A DNA stretch of 64,000 bases from Capnocytophaga gingivalis ATCC 33624. Lineage in GTDB: Bacteria > Bacteroidota > Bacteroidia > Flavobacteriales > Flavobacteriaceae. The position numbers and the translations under genes are program-made. The notes below the pieces were generated by a model. It was not told the DNA's origin, did no database searches, and worked only from the letters and a program-made list of their open reading frames with translations. Where the stretch lies: contig NZ_ACLQ01000021.1 of assembly GCF_000174755.1 (NCBI RefSeq), positions 1 to 64,000 on the forward strand, read 5' to 3'. This document shows, in pieces, positions 13,022 to 63,857 of the stretch; the first letter of the stretch is position 1; every line of letters starts with the position of its first letter.

Positions 13022-13051
13022 CAAAGATACAAAAAAAATTTTACAATCCAA
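13022..13051 (-). promoter_or_regulatory. Promoter of rpoC
   Basis: On the minus strand TATCTTTG (13022-13029) is a perfect Bacteroidetes -7 element and TTG (13049-13051) lies 19 bp upstream. It gives rpoC its own start of transcription, consistent with the absence of rpoB. Confidence 0.7.
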
Positions 13052-13201
13052 TATTTTCTTTAATTATTTTTAGCCATTGTCAATTCCTCTTGTAAGTTAA
13101 TAACATTTTTGAAAAAAACAATGGAACTCGCTACATTACACATTAGTTCATGCAATAAAAAAATTATTATCCTTAAACCACTATTTATTTACAAAAAAAC
13201 G

Positions 13202-30545: not shown

Positions 30546-30563
30546 GAATTCTATTTTTAGGCG

Positions 30564-30593
30564 CAAAGGTACAAAATAATGATTAATGTTCAA
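30564..30593 (-). promoter_or_regulatory. Promoter of the ubiE-porT-dsbD unit
   Basis: On the minus strand TACCTTTG (30564-30571) and TTG (30591-30593) are 19 bp apart. The start codon at 30545 is about 20 bp downstream, which fixes the ubiE start. Confidence 0.8.
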
Positions 30594-58888: not shown

Positions 58889-61843
58889 TCAGAAGAGATG
58901 GAAGGTAGCGCGAGCAAAGACATAGCGTCCATTGAGCCCAAACTGAGAAGTGGCTCGTGAATAGACAAACTGGTCATTATTGTTATTAACCTTGACATTT
59001 TTCTCAGGATAAAGGTCAAAGAGGTTGTTCACCCCAAGGGTAAAAGAGGTCTTTGGAGTAAAGTTATACGCTATGGAAAGATCAGTGATTATTTTTCCAC
59101 GGATCACTTGGTGTCCCCGCTCATCGAATACAAAATCTCCTACTTGGTCAGCAGTTCGGATGATATCTGGTCCAGTGGCCTTGCCATAATAAGTATTGCG
59201 CAAGTAGCCATTCCATTTTCCTATGGTAAGATTGTGAGAAAGAGTAGCTTTGAAGCGAGGGATTACCTCTTCCAGAAGTACTCGAGAGCGCTCGGAGAAG
59301 AATTTTTCTTCAAGTCCTGCAGCCTTAATAGCTCTTGGGGTATGTATTTCTCCTACTTTTTTAGTTTGGGTAAGGTTAAAAGCAAAATCATTGGTCAGGG
59401 AGAACTTATCGTTTTGTAGCGAATGGCTCAGTACTACATCTATTCCTTTGGTTTCTACATCTACCGCATTGGCAAAGAACTGTACGGTATTGACATTGGC
59501 CAAATCAAATATTTGTTTGAGTTCATTCTCAGCAGTAGTATTCCCTGCAGGACGAGAAAAAGCTTCAGTAAGGATAATACGGTCATCCACACGGATAAAG
59601 TAAGCATCGGCACTGAGAGAGAGACCTGCCTTAGGCACTTTCAAGGCGAAACCTGCACTAACCGACTTGGATTTTTCTTCGCGAAGCTTATCTATTCCAA
59701 AGAGTTCTGCTGCACGAGAGATATTGTTAAAAGTACCTGTTTCCTGTAATACTCCATTGATCTGTAAGGTATTGATATTGGTATAATACAACTGATGAAT
59801 AGAAGGAGCACGGAAGCCAGTAGAGGCAGCCCCGCGGAGATTCACATTCGGAAAGAGTTTTACACGTGTAGCGAGCTTATAGTTAAAGGTATTTCCAAAG
59901 TCTGAATAATGTTCATAACGCACTGCAGCATTAGCCAATAACCATTTGGTAATATCTGTTTCGAATTCTCCATACCCTGCCACTACATTACGTGTTTTGG
60001 TAAGAGCACTTTCTTTCCTAAATCCAGGGAGCACTTGTGCGCCTCCAGGGAGTGCGTTCCCAAAAAAGTCAGTTGTCTTTTGGCTGCTTGGTGCTCCCAA
60101 TGGGAGTACTCCGCCATGTATATCATAGGTAGCATAGGAGAGTTCCTCGCCTGCCACTGTACTATAAGCCTCATGACGCTGCTCCAATCCAAAAGAAATA
60201 TTAGCCTTTTCAAAGAGCTCAAGAGGGCGAGAGAAGTCTAAGTTGATCGTATTCTGCAGGAAGCGTAACTTACCAGCATCGAAGGAGTCCGGAGAGGCAA
60301 AGCGTAAGCTGGTATTGCCTGTATTCTTAATGGTGTAGGCGAACTCATTGCGACCAAAGGTATTACTCAAGTCGATATGCCACTTCCCTACTTCTCCACG
60401 TATCCCTGCCGAGATAGAGGAATCCTGTATGTCGGTAGTTATCTTAGGCAAATATCCATTGGGATGTAAGCCTGTGAAAGTACGAGCTTGGTTAGGACGA
60501 CGGAAGAAGCCTCCTGCTTCTCCATAGCGATAACTCTGCCCTCCGAAAGCATACAGTTCCCAGTGCTTAGAGAAAGGAATCACTGCATTGATAAAGAACT
60601 GAGTCCCCAAGAGACTGGATTGGCCTACATGCATATTGAAATCTTTGCGGCCCAAGCCTCGGTAAGCGAGTTCCTGCTCGGTAAAGTCCTTCTTGAGAAG
60701 CGGCTGCAAGGCTGCTATAGAGGTAGCACCCTGTATCTGAGAGAGATAGCTGCTATCAAAATAATCTACCTCCTGAACATAACCTTTGATAAGCCCTAAT
60801 AGGCGAGAGTCTGCATCTACATTGATATTGCTAAAGTACCCCGATAAGTTGTCATTGTGCTCAAGAGCACGCAGTTCTATAGCATTGTAAGCGTTGAAAA
60901 TATCTCCATCAAAAGTACCTGCACGATGAGTTGTGTTACGAAACTGAGCAGAGAAAGTTAGGTTGAGGAATCCCCCCTTCTTGCCCAATTCGGTACCGTA
61001 ATTAATATCCAGCTGACCTTGTCCGCCATCAAAGTCACCCCTATGGTCATTAGCCTTAGGTGTAAGGTGACCTCCATAACTTACCTGAGCGGAAAGCCCT
61101 TTTTCTTTTTTGAGTTCTAAGTTCATCACCCCTGCGATGGCATCCGATCCATACTGAGCAGAAGCTCCATCACGCAATACCTCTATACGAGAGAGCGCAA
61201 AGGAAGGAATCGTATTCAGATCGGTTCCTACAGTGCCTCGCCCTGGAGTCCCATTGACATTGATAAAGGCAGAAGTATGTCGGCGCTTTCCGTTGAGAAG
61301 TACCAAAGTTTGGTCAGGCCCCAACCCACGCAACTGAGCTGGGTCAAGGTGATCCGAACCATCGGACACCACTTGAGTAGTGGAGGTAAAAGAGGGTGCT
61401 ATACTATTGAGTATCTGGTTAATATTCGCCTGTGGCTGTGTCTTGCTTGTTTTGGTCACATCGAAGACATCCACCGGTACAGGGCTGTCAATCTTAGTGC
61501 GTCCTCCTGCACGAGAGCCCACTACCAAGAGTTCAGGAAGTTCCTCGGCTTCACTCTCCAAGGAGACTAAGAGTTGTTTGTGCTTGCCTACCTTGACTTC
61601 CTTCGTCTTAAATCCTATATAGGAAAAGACAAGAGTTTCTTCGGGAGAGACTCTGAGGGTAAACTCTCCTTTCTCATTGGTCGTAGCCCCTCTGCTGGGA
61701 CTATCCTTTACCAAGATGGTAACTCCCAAGAGAGGCTCCTTTTGATCATCAGTAACTTTCCCTTTGAGGGTCTGCGCTCCTGCCACTGTGGCGAGGAGAA
61801 AAAAAGCAAGGCTTAAAAGCTGTTGTCGAATTTTTGTTCTCAT
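58889..61843 (-). CDS. TonB-dependent receptor with CarboxypepD-like N-terminal domain
   Basis: An outer-membrane active transporter of 984 residues. The signal peptide is MRTKIRQQLLSLAFFLLATVAGA. A carboxypeptidase regulatory-like domain (LKGKVTDDQKEPLLGVTILVKD) spans about 24-105. The plug follows with PVPVDVFDVTKTS, LNGKRRHTSAFINVNG and RIEVLRDGASAQYGSDAIAGVMNL, then the barrel, ending in ATFHLF with a terminal Phe. It is of the classical receptor type without a SusD partner. The ligand is unknown. Expression appears to be controlled by an attenuator-like leader with a sulfur-amino-acid-rich upstream ORF, which suggests a sulfur compound, peptide or metal complex; that is inference. Confidence 0.94.
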   Translation of the reverse strand: MRTKIRQQLLSLAFFLLATVAGAQTLKGKVTDDQKEPLLGVTILVKDSPSRGATTNEKGEFTLRVSPEETLVFSYIGFKTKEVKVGKHKQLLVSLESEAEELPELLVVGSRAGGRTKIDSPVPVDVFDVTKTSKTQPQANINQILNSIAPSFTSTTQVVSDGSDHLDPAQLRGLGPDQTLVLLNGKRRHTSAFINVNGTPGRGTVGTDLNTIPSFALSRIEVLRDGASAQYGSDAIAGVMNLELKKEKGLSAQVSYGGHLTPKANDHRGDFDGGQGQLDINYGTELGKKGGFLNLTFSAQFRNTTHRAGTFDGDIFNAYNAIELRALEHNDNLSGYFSNINVDADSRLLGLIKGYVQEVDYFDSSYLSQIQGATSIAALQPLLKKDFTEQELAYRGLGRKDFNMHVGQSSLLGTQFFINAVIPFSKHWELYAFGGQSYRYGEAGGFFRRPNQARTFTGLHPNGYLPKITTDIQDSSISAGIRGEVGKWHIDLSNTFGRNEFAYTIKNTGNTSLRFASPDSFDAGKLRFLQNTINLDFSRPLELFEKANISFGLEQRHEAYSTVAGEELSYATYDIHGGVLPLGAPSSQKTTDFFGNALPGGAQVLPGFRKESALTKTRNVVAGYGEFETDITKWLLANAAVRYEHYSDFGNTFNYKLATRVKLFPNVNLRGAASTGFRAPSIHQLYYTNINTLQINGVLQETGTFNNISRAAELFGIDKLREEKSKSVSAGFALKVPKAGLSLSADAYFIRVDDRIILTEAFSRPAGNTTAENELKQIFDLANVNTVQFFANAVDVETKGIDVVLSHSLQNDKFSLTNDFAFNLTQTKKVGEIHTPRAIKAAGLEEKFFSERSRVLLEEVIPRFKATLSHNLTIGKWNGYLRNTYYGKATGPDIIRTADQVGDFVFDERGHQVIRGKIITDLSIAYNFTPKTSFTLGVNNLFDLYPEKNVKVNNNNDQFVYSRATSQFGLNGRYVFARATFHLF

Positions 61844-61879
61844 TCGGTCTAATAATTTAGGGTTATAAGTTTAAAAAGA

Positions 61880-61918
61880 AAAAAGAAAGCAACGATACTA
61901 CATCATTGCTTTCTTTTT
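61880..61918 (-). terminator. Intrinsic terminator in the receptor leader (attenuator)
   Basis: AAAAAGAAAGCAA (61880-61892) and its exact complement (61906-61918) form a 13-bp stem, extended by three pairs across one wobble on the minus-strand RNA. The RNA then has UUUUUUCUUUUU. It ends 37 bp before the receptor start and would cut the transcript before the gene unless disrupted. Confidence 0.85.
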
Positions 61919-61940
61919 AGAATATCTATACTATGGACAA

Positions 61941-61999
61941 AAGAAATTATGATGTCTTACTAAGGGTAAGCCATTGAGCAACACATCATGTTATTTCTT
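61941..61999 (-). promoter_or_regulatory. Structured leader element competing with the terminator
   Basis: On the minus-strand RNA the arms AAGAAAU/AUUUCUU and AUGAUGU/ACAUCAU make a 14-bp interrupted stem, with an inner CUUAC/GUAAG hairpin. The segment ACAUCAU (61949-61955) can pair with AUGAUGU at 61983-61989 or with the identical AUGAUGU (61900-61906) in the 5' arm of the terminator. The two pairings exclude each other. Confidence 0.65.
61960..61989 (-). CDS. Nine-codon leader peptide upstream of the receptor (MMCCSMAYP)
   Basis: ATG at 61989 opens M-M-C-C-S-M-A-Y-P followed by two stop codons in a row (TAG TAA). Three Met, two tandem Cys and a Ser in six codons is far from chance composition. 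The first codons cover one arm of the leader hairpin, and the stops lie just before the segment that can pair with the terminator. This is where regulatory codons and stops sit in trp- and his-type attenuators. There is no Shine-Dalgarno sequence, but an A-rich GAAGAAATAAC precedes it, as usual in Bacteroidetes. Translation is not proven. Confidence 0.5.
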   Translation of the reverse strand: MMCCSMAYP

Positions 62000-62076
62000 C
62001 GAATAATACTCATTCTTAATTATTAATTTTCAATTGTTAATCCTTTTCCACCGTTCATTGTTCACGATTTCAGGCG

Positions 62077-62105
62077 CAAAGGTAGTAAAAATTTTTTAAT
62101 TACAA
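62077..62105 (-). promoter_or_regulatory. Promoter of the receptor leader
   Basis: On the minus strand TACCTTTG (62077-62084) and TTG (62103-62105) are 18 bp apart. Transcription would start near 62070 and give a leader of about 225 nt. Confidence 0.75.
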
Positions 62106-62147
62106 AACAAAAATAAATATTTTTTTATTATTTTTATTTTATATAGT

Positions 62148-63857
62148 TTAAAAGCCTACTGCCACATCATCTCCACGAGGATCAGCACCTCCTTCTAAGC
62201 TACCATCTTTCTCTACCAAAATAGCATCTACACGACCAATAATTACAAAGTTTTCTTCCTTAGGCACATAGCCTTTAGCCTTCAGCTTACTGATGACCAT
62301 AGGGTCAAAACCTTTGGGCTCGAACATGACATCGTCCGGTAACCATTGGTGGTGAAAGCGAGGCTTGCTTACTGACTCCTGCATAGTCATACCATACTCA
62401 AAGACATTGAGCATACACTGGAGTACAGAAGTAATAATGGTAGAGCCCCCTGGGGTACCTATAACCATACGGAGCTTCCCATTTTCCTCTACTATAGTAG
62501 GCGACATAGAGCTAAGCATTCGTTTGTTGGGTGCAATAGCATTCTTTTCAGACCCCACTAATCCGTAGGTATTTGGCTCCCCTGGCTTGATACTGAAATC
62601 ATCCATTTGATTATTGAGGAAAAAACCAGCTCCTTTTACATATACCTTGGAACCATAATTGGTGTTAAGAGTAGTGGTTACAGCTACCGCATTGCCCTCG
62701 CTGTCGACGATGGAGTAGTGAGTGGTCTCATCACTCTCATAACCGACCACCTTACCATGAGCTATCTCACTGGACTTGCTAGCCTTATCCCAAGAGAAGG
62801 TACTCATACGCTGTTTTAGATAGTCAGGAGAAAGTAGTGTCTGGGTAGGTACCTTTACAAAATCAGGATCCCCCAAAAAGTAAGCCCTATCGGCATAAGC
62901 ACGTCGCTCAGCCTCTACTAAGAGCTGTACATATTTTTCCCCATTGTGAGGGTATTGCCCAATCTTGTAAGGCTCTATCGATTTGATTATCTGAGCGATA
63001 CAGAGCCCCCCACTGGAAGGGAGTGGCATAGAGGAAATGGTATAATTCTTATAATTGAATGTAATAGGAGTACGCCACTGAGAGTGATAGTTCTTCAAGT
63101 CTTCAAGAGAGAGAATCCCCCCTAATTCTTGGACATAGCTTACGATACGCTTGGCAGTTTCTCCCTCGTAAAATTCAGCGCGACCATTGTCTCGAATACG
63201 TTCTAAGGTCTGTGCTAGTTCCTCATACTTAAAACACTCACCTGCCTTCCATCCATTCTCAAAAGGAGTGACATAATTATTGGCTTTTTTTATTTGTTCT
63301 ACATTTTTCCCCATGTAGAAATCCGCCTGTAAGGGAGTGATGACCACCCCATTGCGAGCTAAATCGATAGCTGGTTGTATGAGCTCTGCCATAGGGAGTT
63401 TTCCGAACTTCTTGTGTACTTCAAAGAGTGCATCTATCGTACCAGGCACCCCTATCGCAAGCGCCCCAAGGGTACTTTTACCAGGAATCACCTTGCCATT
63501 GGCATCCAAGTACATATCACGATGTGCTTTGTTAGGTGCTTTTTCTCGATAGTCCAAAGCGCCTTTTTCTCCATTAGCCAAACGGTATACCATAAAGCCT
63601 CCCCCGCCTATATTCCCAGCATTGGGGTAAGCCACTGCCAAGGCTAATTCTGTAGCGACCATTGCATCAAAGGCATTACCTCCTTTTTTAAGGATTGCAA
63701 GCCCTATCTCGGAGGCTTCCCTCTTGGCACTCACGACCATAGCATGCTTGGCCAATACCCCTTTTTTCTGTCCTGTGGCTACTTTCCCAGTAGTGCATGC
63801 ACTCACTAATAAGAAAAGAAGTGCTCCAAAAAATGAAAAGATTCTTTTTACAATCAT
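62148..63857 (-). CDS. ggt: Gamma-glutamyltransferase (lipoprotein)
   Basis: An N-terminal nucleophile hydrolase that removes gamma-glutamyl groups from glutathione and similar compounds. It has 569 residues, with lipobox LLVSAC (Cys21), so it is envelope-anchored. The large subunit has GGNAFDAMVA and GNIGGGGFMVYR. The self-cleavage site and nucleophile is Thr378 in DETTHYSIVD, as at Thr391 of E. coli. LSSMSPTIV and GTPGGSTIIT are in the small subunit. Its product pathway yields Cys-Gly and cysteine in the periplasm. That is of interest because the next gene downstream has a Cys/Met-coded leader. Confidence 0.96.
   Translation of the reverse strand: MIVKRIFSFFGALLFLLVSACTTGKVATGQKKGVLAKHAMVVSAKREASEIGLAILKKGGNAFDAMVATELALAVAYPNAGNIGGGGFMVYRLANGEKGALDYREKAPNKAHRDMYLDANGKVIPGKSTLGALAIGVPGTIDALFEVHKKFGKLPMAELIQPAIDLARNGVVITPLQADFYMGKNVEQIKKANNYVTPFENGWKAGECFKYEELAQTLERIRDNGRAEFYEGETAKRIVSYVQELGGILSLEDLKNYHSQWRTPITFNYKNYTISSMPLPSSGGLCIAQIIKSIEPYKIGQYPHNGEKYVQLLVEAERRAYADRAYFLGDPDFVKVPTQTLLSPDYLKQRMSTFSWDKASKSSEIAHGKVVGYESDETTHYSIVDSEGNAVAVTTTLNTNYGSKVYVKGAGFFLNNQMDDFSIKPGEPNTYGLVGSEKNAIAPNKRMLSSMSPTIVEENGKLRMVIGTPGGSTIITSVLQCMLNVFEYGMTMQESVSKPRFHHQWLPDDVMFEPKGFDPMVISKLKAKGYVPKEENFVIIGRVDAILVEKDGSLEGGADPRGDDVAVGF

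Follow-up and report, generated by a model that had tools for sequence, protein, structure and literature searches.

Analysis of the window, the whole 64-kb stretch of DNA studied here, points to a ribosome-mediated attenuator that would sense charged tRNA-Cys, and probably also charged tRNA-Met, and control a TonB-dependent receptor gene, a reading to which we assign a probability of roughly 0.85. The trp-type attenuator put forward in the preliminary description is supported by conserved pairings, by a Met/Cys core in the leader peptide and by comparable leaders in related genomes. The receptor as target gains comparative support from leaders in the same genus, in genome G038 and of a Flavobacterium type, and cysteine (or methionine) as signal is supported comparatively by an excess of tandem Cys codons and by leaders preceding Cys and Met synthesis genes. 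The tandem Cys codons on which the earlier proposal also leaned are not conserved as such, since other leaders carry LC or SC, and a Met-x-Cys-x-Met arrangement is conserved instead. With conservation holding for Met-x-Cys-x-Met but not strictly for the CC pair, the signal is better named 'sulfur amino acids' than 'cysteine'.

Leader ORF and alternative RNA pairings in the window

The features of the element and its neighbours are as follows.

62148-63857, minus strand: gamma-glutamyltransferase gene (ggt), upstream neighbour of the receptor gene, tied to it by adjacency alone
62077-62106, minus strand: likely promoter of Bacteroidetes type by consensus match, TTTG (62106-62103), N18, TACCTTTG (62084-62077)
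61960-62013, minus strand: leader ORF MSIIRRNNMMCCSMAYP, stop TAG (61962-61960) followed by an in-frame TAA, with counterparts in loci L003 and L004
61977-62000, minus strand: segment A, 5' arm of the A:B pause / anti-antiterminator hairpin, overlapping leader codons
61972-61989, minus strand: regulatory codons, Met Met (61989-61984), Cys Cys (61983-61978), Ser, Met (61974-61972)
61938-61961, minus strand: segment B, partner of A or C, starting at the leader stop codon
61901-61918, minus strand: segment C, terminator 5' arm, repeating the AAGAAA and ATGATGT words of A
61880-61896, minus strand: segment D, 3' arm of the intrinsic terminator
61869-61888, minus strand: U-rich tract at the terminator end and beyond it
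58889-61843, minus strand: TonB-dependent receptor gene, 984 aa (CarboxypepD_reg-like, Plug and beta-barrel regions), the proposed regulated gene

Direct reading confirmed the codons ATG ATG TGT TGC TCA ATG GCT TAC CCT TAG TAA at 61989-61957. The codons of the MMCCSMAYP leader first described are therefore correct; the frame itself extends upstream to an ATG at 62013, giving MSIIRRNNMMCCSMAYP, in which the tandem Cys residues are codons 11-12 counted from that ATG. The B core ACATCAT (61955-61949) and the C core ATGATGT (61906-61900) lie where they had been placed, and the word GTTGCT is indeed common to the leader ORF and the terminator 3' arm. The 7-nt words originally assigned to A, B and C hold as cores of a larger pairing, with A extending over 62000-61977 and B over 61961-61938, and with B:C spanning AAAGAAA in addition to ATGATGT. 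The leader RNA was predicted to fold with -45.7 kcal/mol, compared with -21.9 +/- 3.2 kcal/mol for shuffled sequences (z -7.35; 0 of 200 shuffles equally stable). The A:B and B:C duplexes were computed at -19.2 and -14.2 kcal/mol, values that none of 2000 shuffles attained for either duplex, and the computed A:B, B:C and C:D helices are mutually exclusive, C:D being the intrinsic terminator. This terminator (61918-61880) has a stem of 18 pairs, with one terminator-like site found as against 0.3 in shuffles, and release of the RNA would be expected near 61870-61879.

The promoter claimed in the preliminary description is present by consensus match and is likely to be of the Bacteroidetes type, for which the consensus is TTTG / TAnnTTTG; a sigma-70-type scan of the region performed no better than shuffles (2 matches vs 1.9). 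The pattern TTTG-N17-20-TAnnTTTG matched twice on the minus strand of the 64 kb, and the promoter word TACCTTTGCGCC recurs exactly at 30560-30571 on the minus strand of the window. Transcription would be expected to start a few bases 3' of the promoter, near 62070, in which case approximately 57 nt precede the leader ORF. A search of the whole 64-kb window against Rfam release 15 gave 0 matches at the gathering score, and the best matches in a scan of the leader region were far under the cut-offs.

The receptor matched none of the NCBIfam receptor families at cut-off, and its relatives of solved structure (22 matches, among them SusC homologues and siderophore and B12 receptors) aligned in the N-terminal and plug regions. 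Among the 27 Plug-domain genes of the window genome, a short ORF with CC within 300 nt upstream was found only at the receptor studied here. No Met/Cys attenuator leader was found upstream of this genome's own cysE and metY genes, 457 nt having been examined in the case of metY. The latter gene, encoding an O-acetylhomoserine sulfhydrylase, is situated approximately 12 kb from the receptor gene on the same contig (G000:C17:74278-75543; L217:18278-19543). The suggested link with Ggt (and Cys-Gly) is one of adjacency only, ggt lying 5' of the receptor gene in three of the four genus members with an orthologue (the window genome, G001 and G013) and cysK taking its place in the fourth.

Conservation within the genus

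A survey of 20 genomes of the genus, that of the window included, gave a receptor match at E 1e-100 in four and none in the remaining 16. A receptor remnant of 118 residues, 79% identical and containing one in-frame TGA, was observed at G002:C16:204965-205318 (L018) in a genome otherwise lacking the receptor. The receptors at L003 and L004 are 84% and 79% identical to that of the window and are preceded by the leaders MFLIQRNNMMMCCPMPYPCKTS and MTFTSKNMMMLCSMVSP respectively, the latter (MMMLCSM) containing one Cys; the TAnnTTTG word also occurs 5' of both. Conservation of the A/B/C complementarity, on which the earlier proposal was staked, was found in both of these terminator-bearing congeners, which keep A:B, B:C and the terminator. 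The A:B and B:C duplexes were computed at -13.7 and -14.0 kcal/mol for L003 (reached by 10 and 6 of 2000 shuffles) and at -19.7 and -17.5 kcal/mol for L004 (1 and 0 of 2000). In the A segment of L004, TGTTG is replaced by CTTTG and B is changed to match, such that the duplex of this A with its own B comes to -19.7 kcal/mol, compared with -8.6 kcal/mol for the same A with the B of the window; these differences represent a compensating change. An RNAalifold consensus of the three leaders contained changes on both sides in 2 of 39 pairs, which is suggestive, three sequences not making a powered covariation test. The attenuator is present in only three of the four genus members carrying the receptor; the fourth (L005) has a receptor 69% identical to that of the window and a uORF with CC, and its terminator scan was negative.

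Searching 199 genomes of the family with the pattern AAYATGATGTGYTGY gave 17 places in 16 genomes as against one in the control. The 16 places other than the window were unconvincing by eye, and the literal MMCC form consequently seems local to the genus; at L151 there is a promoter-like word, but the next ORF reads as GMP synthase. Each of the 15 terminator-bearing receptor leaders that were read contains the core M[SCL]C.M; these are the leaders of the window, L003 and L004 together with L050 and 11 further leaders of the Flavobacterium type described below. L005, L009 and L189 lack this core.

In G013 the L004 receptor gene is followed by metE. The 93-nt gap between the two genes (L219:9205-9298) holds a promoter-like TAGTTTTG, and with metE possessing such a site of its own, co-transcription of receptor and metE is only putative.

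Tandem Cys codons upstream of receptor homologues

Short ATG-initiated ORFs were counted in the 300 nt preceding each of 91 receptor homologues and compared with 200 dinucleotide shuffles. Tandem Cys constituted the main excess among the amino acids, CC occurring in 16 upstream regions (3.0 +/- 1.6 in shuffles) and CCC in seven (0.10 in shuffles), with neither count reached in any of the 200 shuffles. Met was second, with MM in four (0.7; reached once in 200 shuffles) and MMM in two (0.01), and slight increases were seen for Val pairs (11 vs 6.8; 16 of 200 shuffles) and for triplets of Arg (2 vs 0.39; 11 of 200) and Ser (4 vs 0.96; 4 of 200). Two of the 16 CC ORFs, at L006 and L007, begin before the point where transcription is predicted to start and are probably due to chance, as are probably those at L064 and L067. 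Within these loci, 9 of 77 receptor genes have a CC ORF upstream compared with 18 of 599 other genes, and 6 of 77 have a CCC ORF compared with 4 of 599. When mostly intergenic upstream regions alone were considered, the corresponding values were 7/60 vs 10/264 for CC (p 0.022) and 5/60 vs 4/264 for CCC (p 0.013).

The non-receptor genes preceded by CCC comprised a tandem receptor paralogue (L101), two ResA-like genes (L102 and L109) and an unrelated gene (L087). Both ResA-like genes head a same-strand gene run containing the receptor. This run is conserved (L102:2465-8748 and L109:412-8688) and consists of the Cys leader, a ResA/AhpC-TSA-like gene, genes that are presumably YceI-like and MauG-like, as assigned by reading of their sequences, and the receptor gene.

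Terminator stems of at least 10 pairs within 200 nt were found in 6 of the 91 receptor upstream regions, of which three belong to genus members and one to Flavobacterium (L050). Given this rarity of intrinsic terminators in other lineages, Cys leaders there, if functional, would act otherwise. A further receptor locus (L072:5965-9951) combines the leader MTKLMCTLRMCCCSC with an amino-acid permease gene directly after the receptor; after the leader come a wide-loop AACCTC/GAGGTT hairpin and a U-run, not counted by the terminator scan, and a test for a B partner at this locus gave no signal, 757 of 1000 shuffles being as good.

Leaders upstream of cysteine and siroheme synthesis genes

A covariance model built from the three genus leaders and searched in the 20 genus genomes recovered its three builders together with many weak matches. 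Ten of the others were read and one of these, L189 in G015, proved to be a leader, the remaining nine (L205, L190-L194, L207, L208 and L210) having the appearance of ordinary gene-end terminators. At L189 a TAnnTTTG word is followed by the leader MMNYTNNNMMMCCTSQKAVSASLCH (MMMCC), a terminator and then cysE and cysK; the receptor orthologue of G015 lies 3' of cysE-cysK on the same strand, with its own TACATTTG word and a uORF with CC. The model gave L189 an E of 0.0019 and the gene-end terminator L205 a better one (7.6e-5), so the case for L189 rests on the reading of the locus and not on its E-value. The L189 terminator 5' arm pairs with a leader segment at -18.2 kcal/mol (0 of 1000 shuffles), and B is located in the last codons of the leader, 3' of the main Met/Cys codons. 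The gap between the G015 cysE-cysK genes (L216:5518-5811) was observed to be packed with short repeats of the types GCCGAAGGCGTTTGATG and CAAACAACATCAAA.

A search of the genus for SATase_N (PF06426) found no cysE, this being the wrong family for these enzymes. Among 30 cysE loci, 17 or more of them from 0.6-Mb genomes, only L249 has a clear Cys leader, L231 and L241 being candidates. G038, which belongs to a different family of the order, was scanned for CCC followed by a stop codon, with 34 places found compared with 10 in the backward control. Thirty of the 34 were read; 26 lay within ATG-started ORFs of at least 60 codons and one (L304) had no ATG-started leader, leaving three leaders, L268, L294 and L299, which end in CCCC. 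The initial filter had passed L268 and L294, with L299 added by hand because it had already been identified as a cysE leader, and a recheck left the same three. L268, for which no promoter was recognised, precedes a run of genes for a DUF2061 protein, a nitrite/sulfite reductase, a uroporphyrinogen methyltransferase and CysG (siroheme), L294 precedes the receptor orthologue, and L299 precedes cysE-cysK. The L299 leader lies within an open frame extending 5' from the cysE start codon, and this case would be weaker if CysE were in fact longer. A leader ending in CCCC also occurs 5' of the receptor gene in Hymenobacter (L092), where a cystathionine gamma-synthase gene is located two genes upstream. 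An MCCC-stop pattern gave 36 places in 148 genomes of the order as against five in the backward control and was rejected as evidence: of the 30 loci viewed by eye, nearly all appeared to lie inside or antisense to genes, L112 was ambiguous and L140 was the only one plainly 5' of a gene that reads as SusC-like.

A Flavobacterium-type family of proposed attenuators

Similar leaders, VCNMMSCKMP and VCNMCCMMWK respectively, precede the receptor gene of Flavobacterium sp. ACN2 (L050) and cysE in G100 (L241); the two share the B word TCCGCAGAG and have similar terminators. A gapped pattern combining B, C and D, of which the ORF formed no part, was searched in 398 genomes of the genus of G100 and occurred at 97 places in 96 of them, compared with none in the backward control. 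The alternative-pairing test was weak for both L241 (39 of 1000 shuffles) and L050 (99 of 1000). Thirty of the 97 loci were read in detail, and in all 30 the end of a short ORF overlaps the B word, the terminator being present by construction of the pattern. B here is located in the last leader codons, 3' of the main Met/Cys codons. Taking the target as the first ORF of at least 120 codons within 900 nt downstream, these leaders precede 11 receptor genes, 14 metY genes, two cystathionine-synthase-like genes, one MetX-like gene, one cysE and one unnamed ORF. The 11 receptors are 48-52% identical to that of the window over about 440-470 aa and the 14 metY products 71-75% identical to that of the window genome; the MetX-like and cystathionine-synthase-like assignments fell below family cut-offs in the one example of each that was scanned.

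Beyond the start codon, 0-4 Cys and 1-6 Met were counted in 29 of these leaders, and the remaining one, MKFTICNMCCRMMWKSPQRKPIA of L320, is likewise rich in Met/Cys. Among 13 metY leaders in the count, 10 carry the core M[SCL]C.M. Codon content follows the target. The leaders of the MetX-like and the two cystathionine-synthase-like genes are Met-rich (4-6 Met, 0-1 Cys), those of cysE are Cys-rich (3 Cys and a single Met after the start in L340; likewise 3 Cys in L241), and those of metY and receptor genes are mixed. A second ORF with at least six Met plus Cys was found at 16 of the 30 loci, 14 of these having a further terminator-like site downstream, and a typical example, MKNSTVNKMMMCCKMPMCIQSCCCQK, resembles RNNMMCCSM of the window. 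Such tandem attenuator-like units were seen before metY at loci among L316-L340, and also at L340 (before cysE) and L328; at L337 the second unit comes just after the first terminator.

An Rfam scan of 15 loci other than the window gave no match on the attenuator itself. In 11 of the 15 (L313, L314, L315, L316, L318, L324, L329, L340, L341, L050 and L241) a SAM-II riboswitch lies on the strand opposite the attenuator, about 0.2-1.3 kb away, and SAM-sensing and Met/Cys-sensing leaders would be divergent neighbours at these 11 loci. L050 contains a SAM-I riboswitch too (13044-13151), kilobases from the attenuator.

Signal and mode of action

The alternative that survives best is that methionine is the real signal, the ribosome stalling at the Met codons with the Cys codons as passengers. 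It draws on Met codons being at least as conserved as Cys codons, on MMMLCSM of L004 with its one Cys and the metE gene following that receptor, and on the Met-rich leaders of the MetX-like and cystathionine-synthase-like genes. However, conservation of the Met codons in A is partly forced by pairing with B, Cys is the main tandem excess across the 91 receptor upstream regions, and both terminator-bearing cysE leaders of the Flavobacterium-type family hold 3 Cys. The G038 leaders, moreover, end in CCCC and two of the three precede Cys synthesis genes, and metE of G013 has its promoter-like site in the gap separating it from the receptor gene. We consider methionine in this role unlikely, and the reading in which charged tRNA-Cys, with probably also charged tRNA-Met, is sensed is preferred.

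Action at translation initiation or via Rho, as proposed for mycobacterial Cys leaders, is suggested by Cys leaders at L005, L009, L037, L061 and L249 that have no terminator in the scan and by L268, where the sole terminator match has 5 pairs and lies inside the leader. Such a non-terminator mode probably holds in other lineages; for the window it is improbable, as an intrinsic terminator is present there and in L003, L004, L189, L241 and L050, as well as, by construction of the search pattern, in the 30 Flavobacterium-type loci. It is still less probable that a ligand-binding riboswitch or protein-bound RNA runs the terminator and the small ORF is untranslated: the A:B hairpin is long and stable, but the Met/Cys codons are conserved in frame, and no Rfam family reached the gathering score in the window, the best matches in the region being far below the cut-offs. 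Least credible is an ordinary 5' UTR in which the terminator belongs to ggt, directly upstream, and the leader ORF and A/B repeats are by-products of its palindrome, for although gene-end terminators are common in these genomes, as the weak covariance-model matches attest, a promoter-like element lies between ggt and this terminator, A:B and B:C are conserved with a compensating change, and Flavobacterium leaders that precede a receptor of this family again contain the Met-x-Cys-x-Met core.

For the attenuator reading, the following sequence of events is proposed from the geometry and the trp-type mechanism, in which kinetics, ribosome positions and the actual signal are presumed. With Cys and Met sufficient, the ribosome would reach the leader stop codon and cover B, C:D would form and RNA polymerase would halt near 61870. 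A shortage of Cys-tRNA (or Met-tRNA) would stall the ribosome on the Met/Cys codons, where it would cover A and leave B free to pair with C, such that the terminator would be blocked and the receptor made. If the leader is untranslated, A:B would form and the terminator would remain on.

Relation to known systems

Trp-type attenuators combine a leader peptide rich in regulatory codons, A:B / B:C / C:D alternatives and an intrinsic terminator. The element of the window has leader codons, alternatives and a terminator of this kind and differs in its target, an outer-membrane receptor in place of a biosynthetic operon, and in that two sulfur amino acids share the leader. Ribosome-mediated attenuation is a known kind of control, and Cys-sensing leaders are, according to the accessible parts of the sources cited below, known or proposed in Rhodobacterales and Actinobacteria. 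The uORFC-8-2 motif of cysS leaders, reported from Rhodobacterales only, contains two tandem Cys codons, usually codons 14-15, and is predicted to sense Cys-tRNA (PMC8632094, portions available); a uORF with tandem Cys, a structured leader and a U-run fitting an intrinsic terminator are common to both, whereas the target in the window is a TonB-dependent receptor in Bacteroidota and not cysS, and Met codons form part of the core. Cys leader peptides are described in Actinobacteria, with no conserved terminator hairpin reported for Mycobacterium in the accessible part of the source (PMC1262725), and the mechanism of the mycobacterial polycysteine leaderless short ORFs (Canestrari 2020) is described as translational, as cited in the available portion of PMC13236596. 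These leaders share with the window Cys codon runs in a leader ORF, and theirs are Cys-responsive; unlike the window, where about 57 nt would lie 5' of the ORF if transcription starts as predicted and an intrinsic terminator is present, the mycobacterial ORFs are leaderless and have cys gene targets. In Flavobacterium psychrophilum, of the same bacterial family, leader-peptide attenuators were noted before amino-acid biosynthesis operons without details, the available text naming no Cys/Met attenuator or receptor target (PMC9723704), and leader-peptide attenuators have been suggested in B. thetaiotaomicron (PMC7366714, in part). Among the papers listed by the literature searches, mainly open-access and in part as excerpts, none was found to describe a TonB-dependent receptor controlled by a Cys or Met attenuator, and no Rfam family covers the element.

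Implications

The receptor may import a sulfur source. The odds appear even that the leaders described here represent a Bacteroidota class of sulfur-amino-acid attenuators, often tandem and with Met/Cys codons blended to suit the target, which would govern a single conserved family of TonB-dependent receptors alongside the synthesis of Cys and Met. That family would then be dedicated to the uptake of cysteine, glutathione or another organosulfur source across the outer membrane. This would be an amino-acid attenuator governing outer-membrane uptake, in a phylum where leader-peptide control is only sketched in the literature found. It would give a TonB-dependent receptor family without a name a testable substrate class, and the series of leaders with varied Met/Cys content may offer a natural set for codon content as a tuning device.
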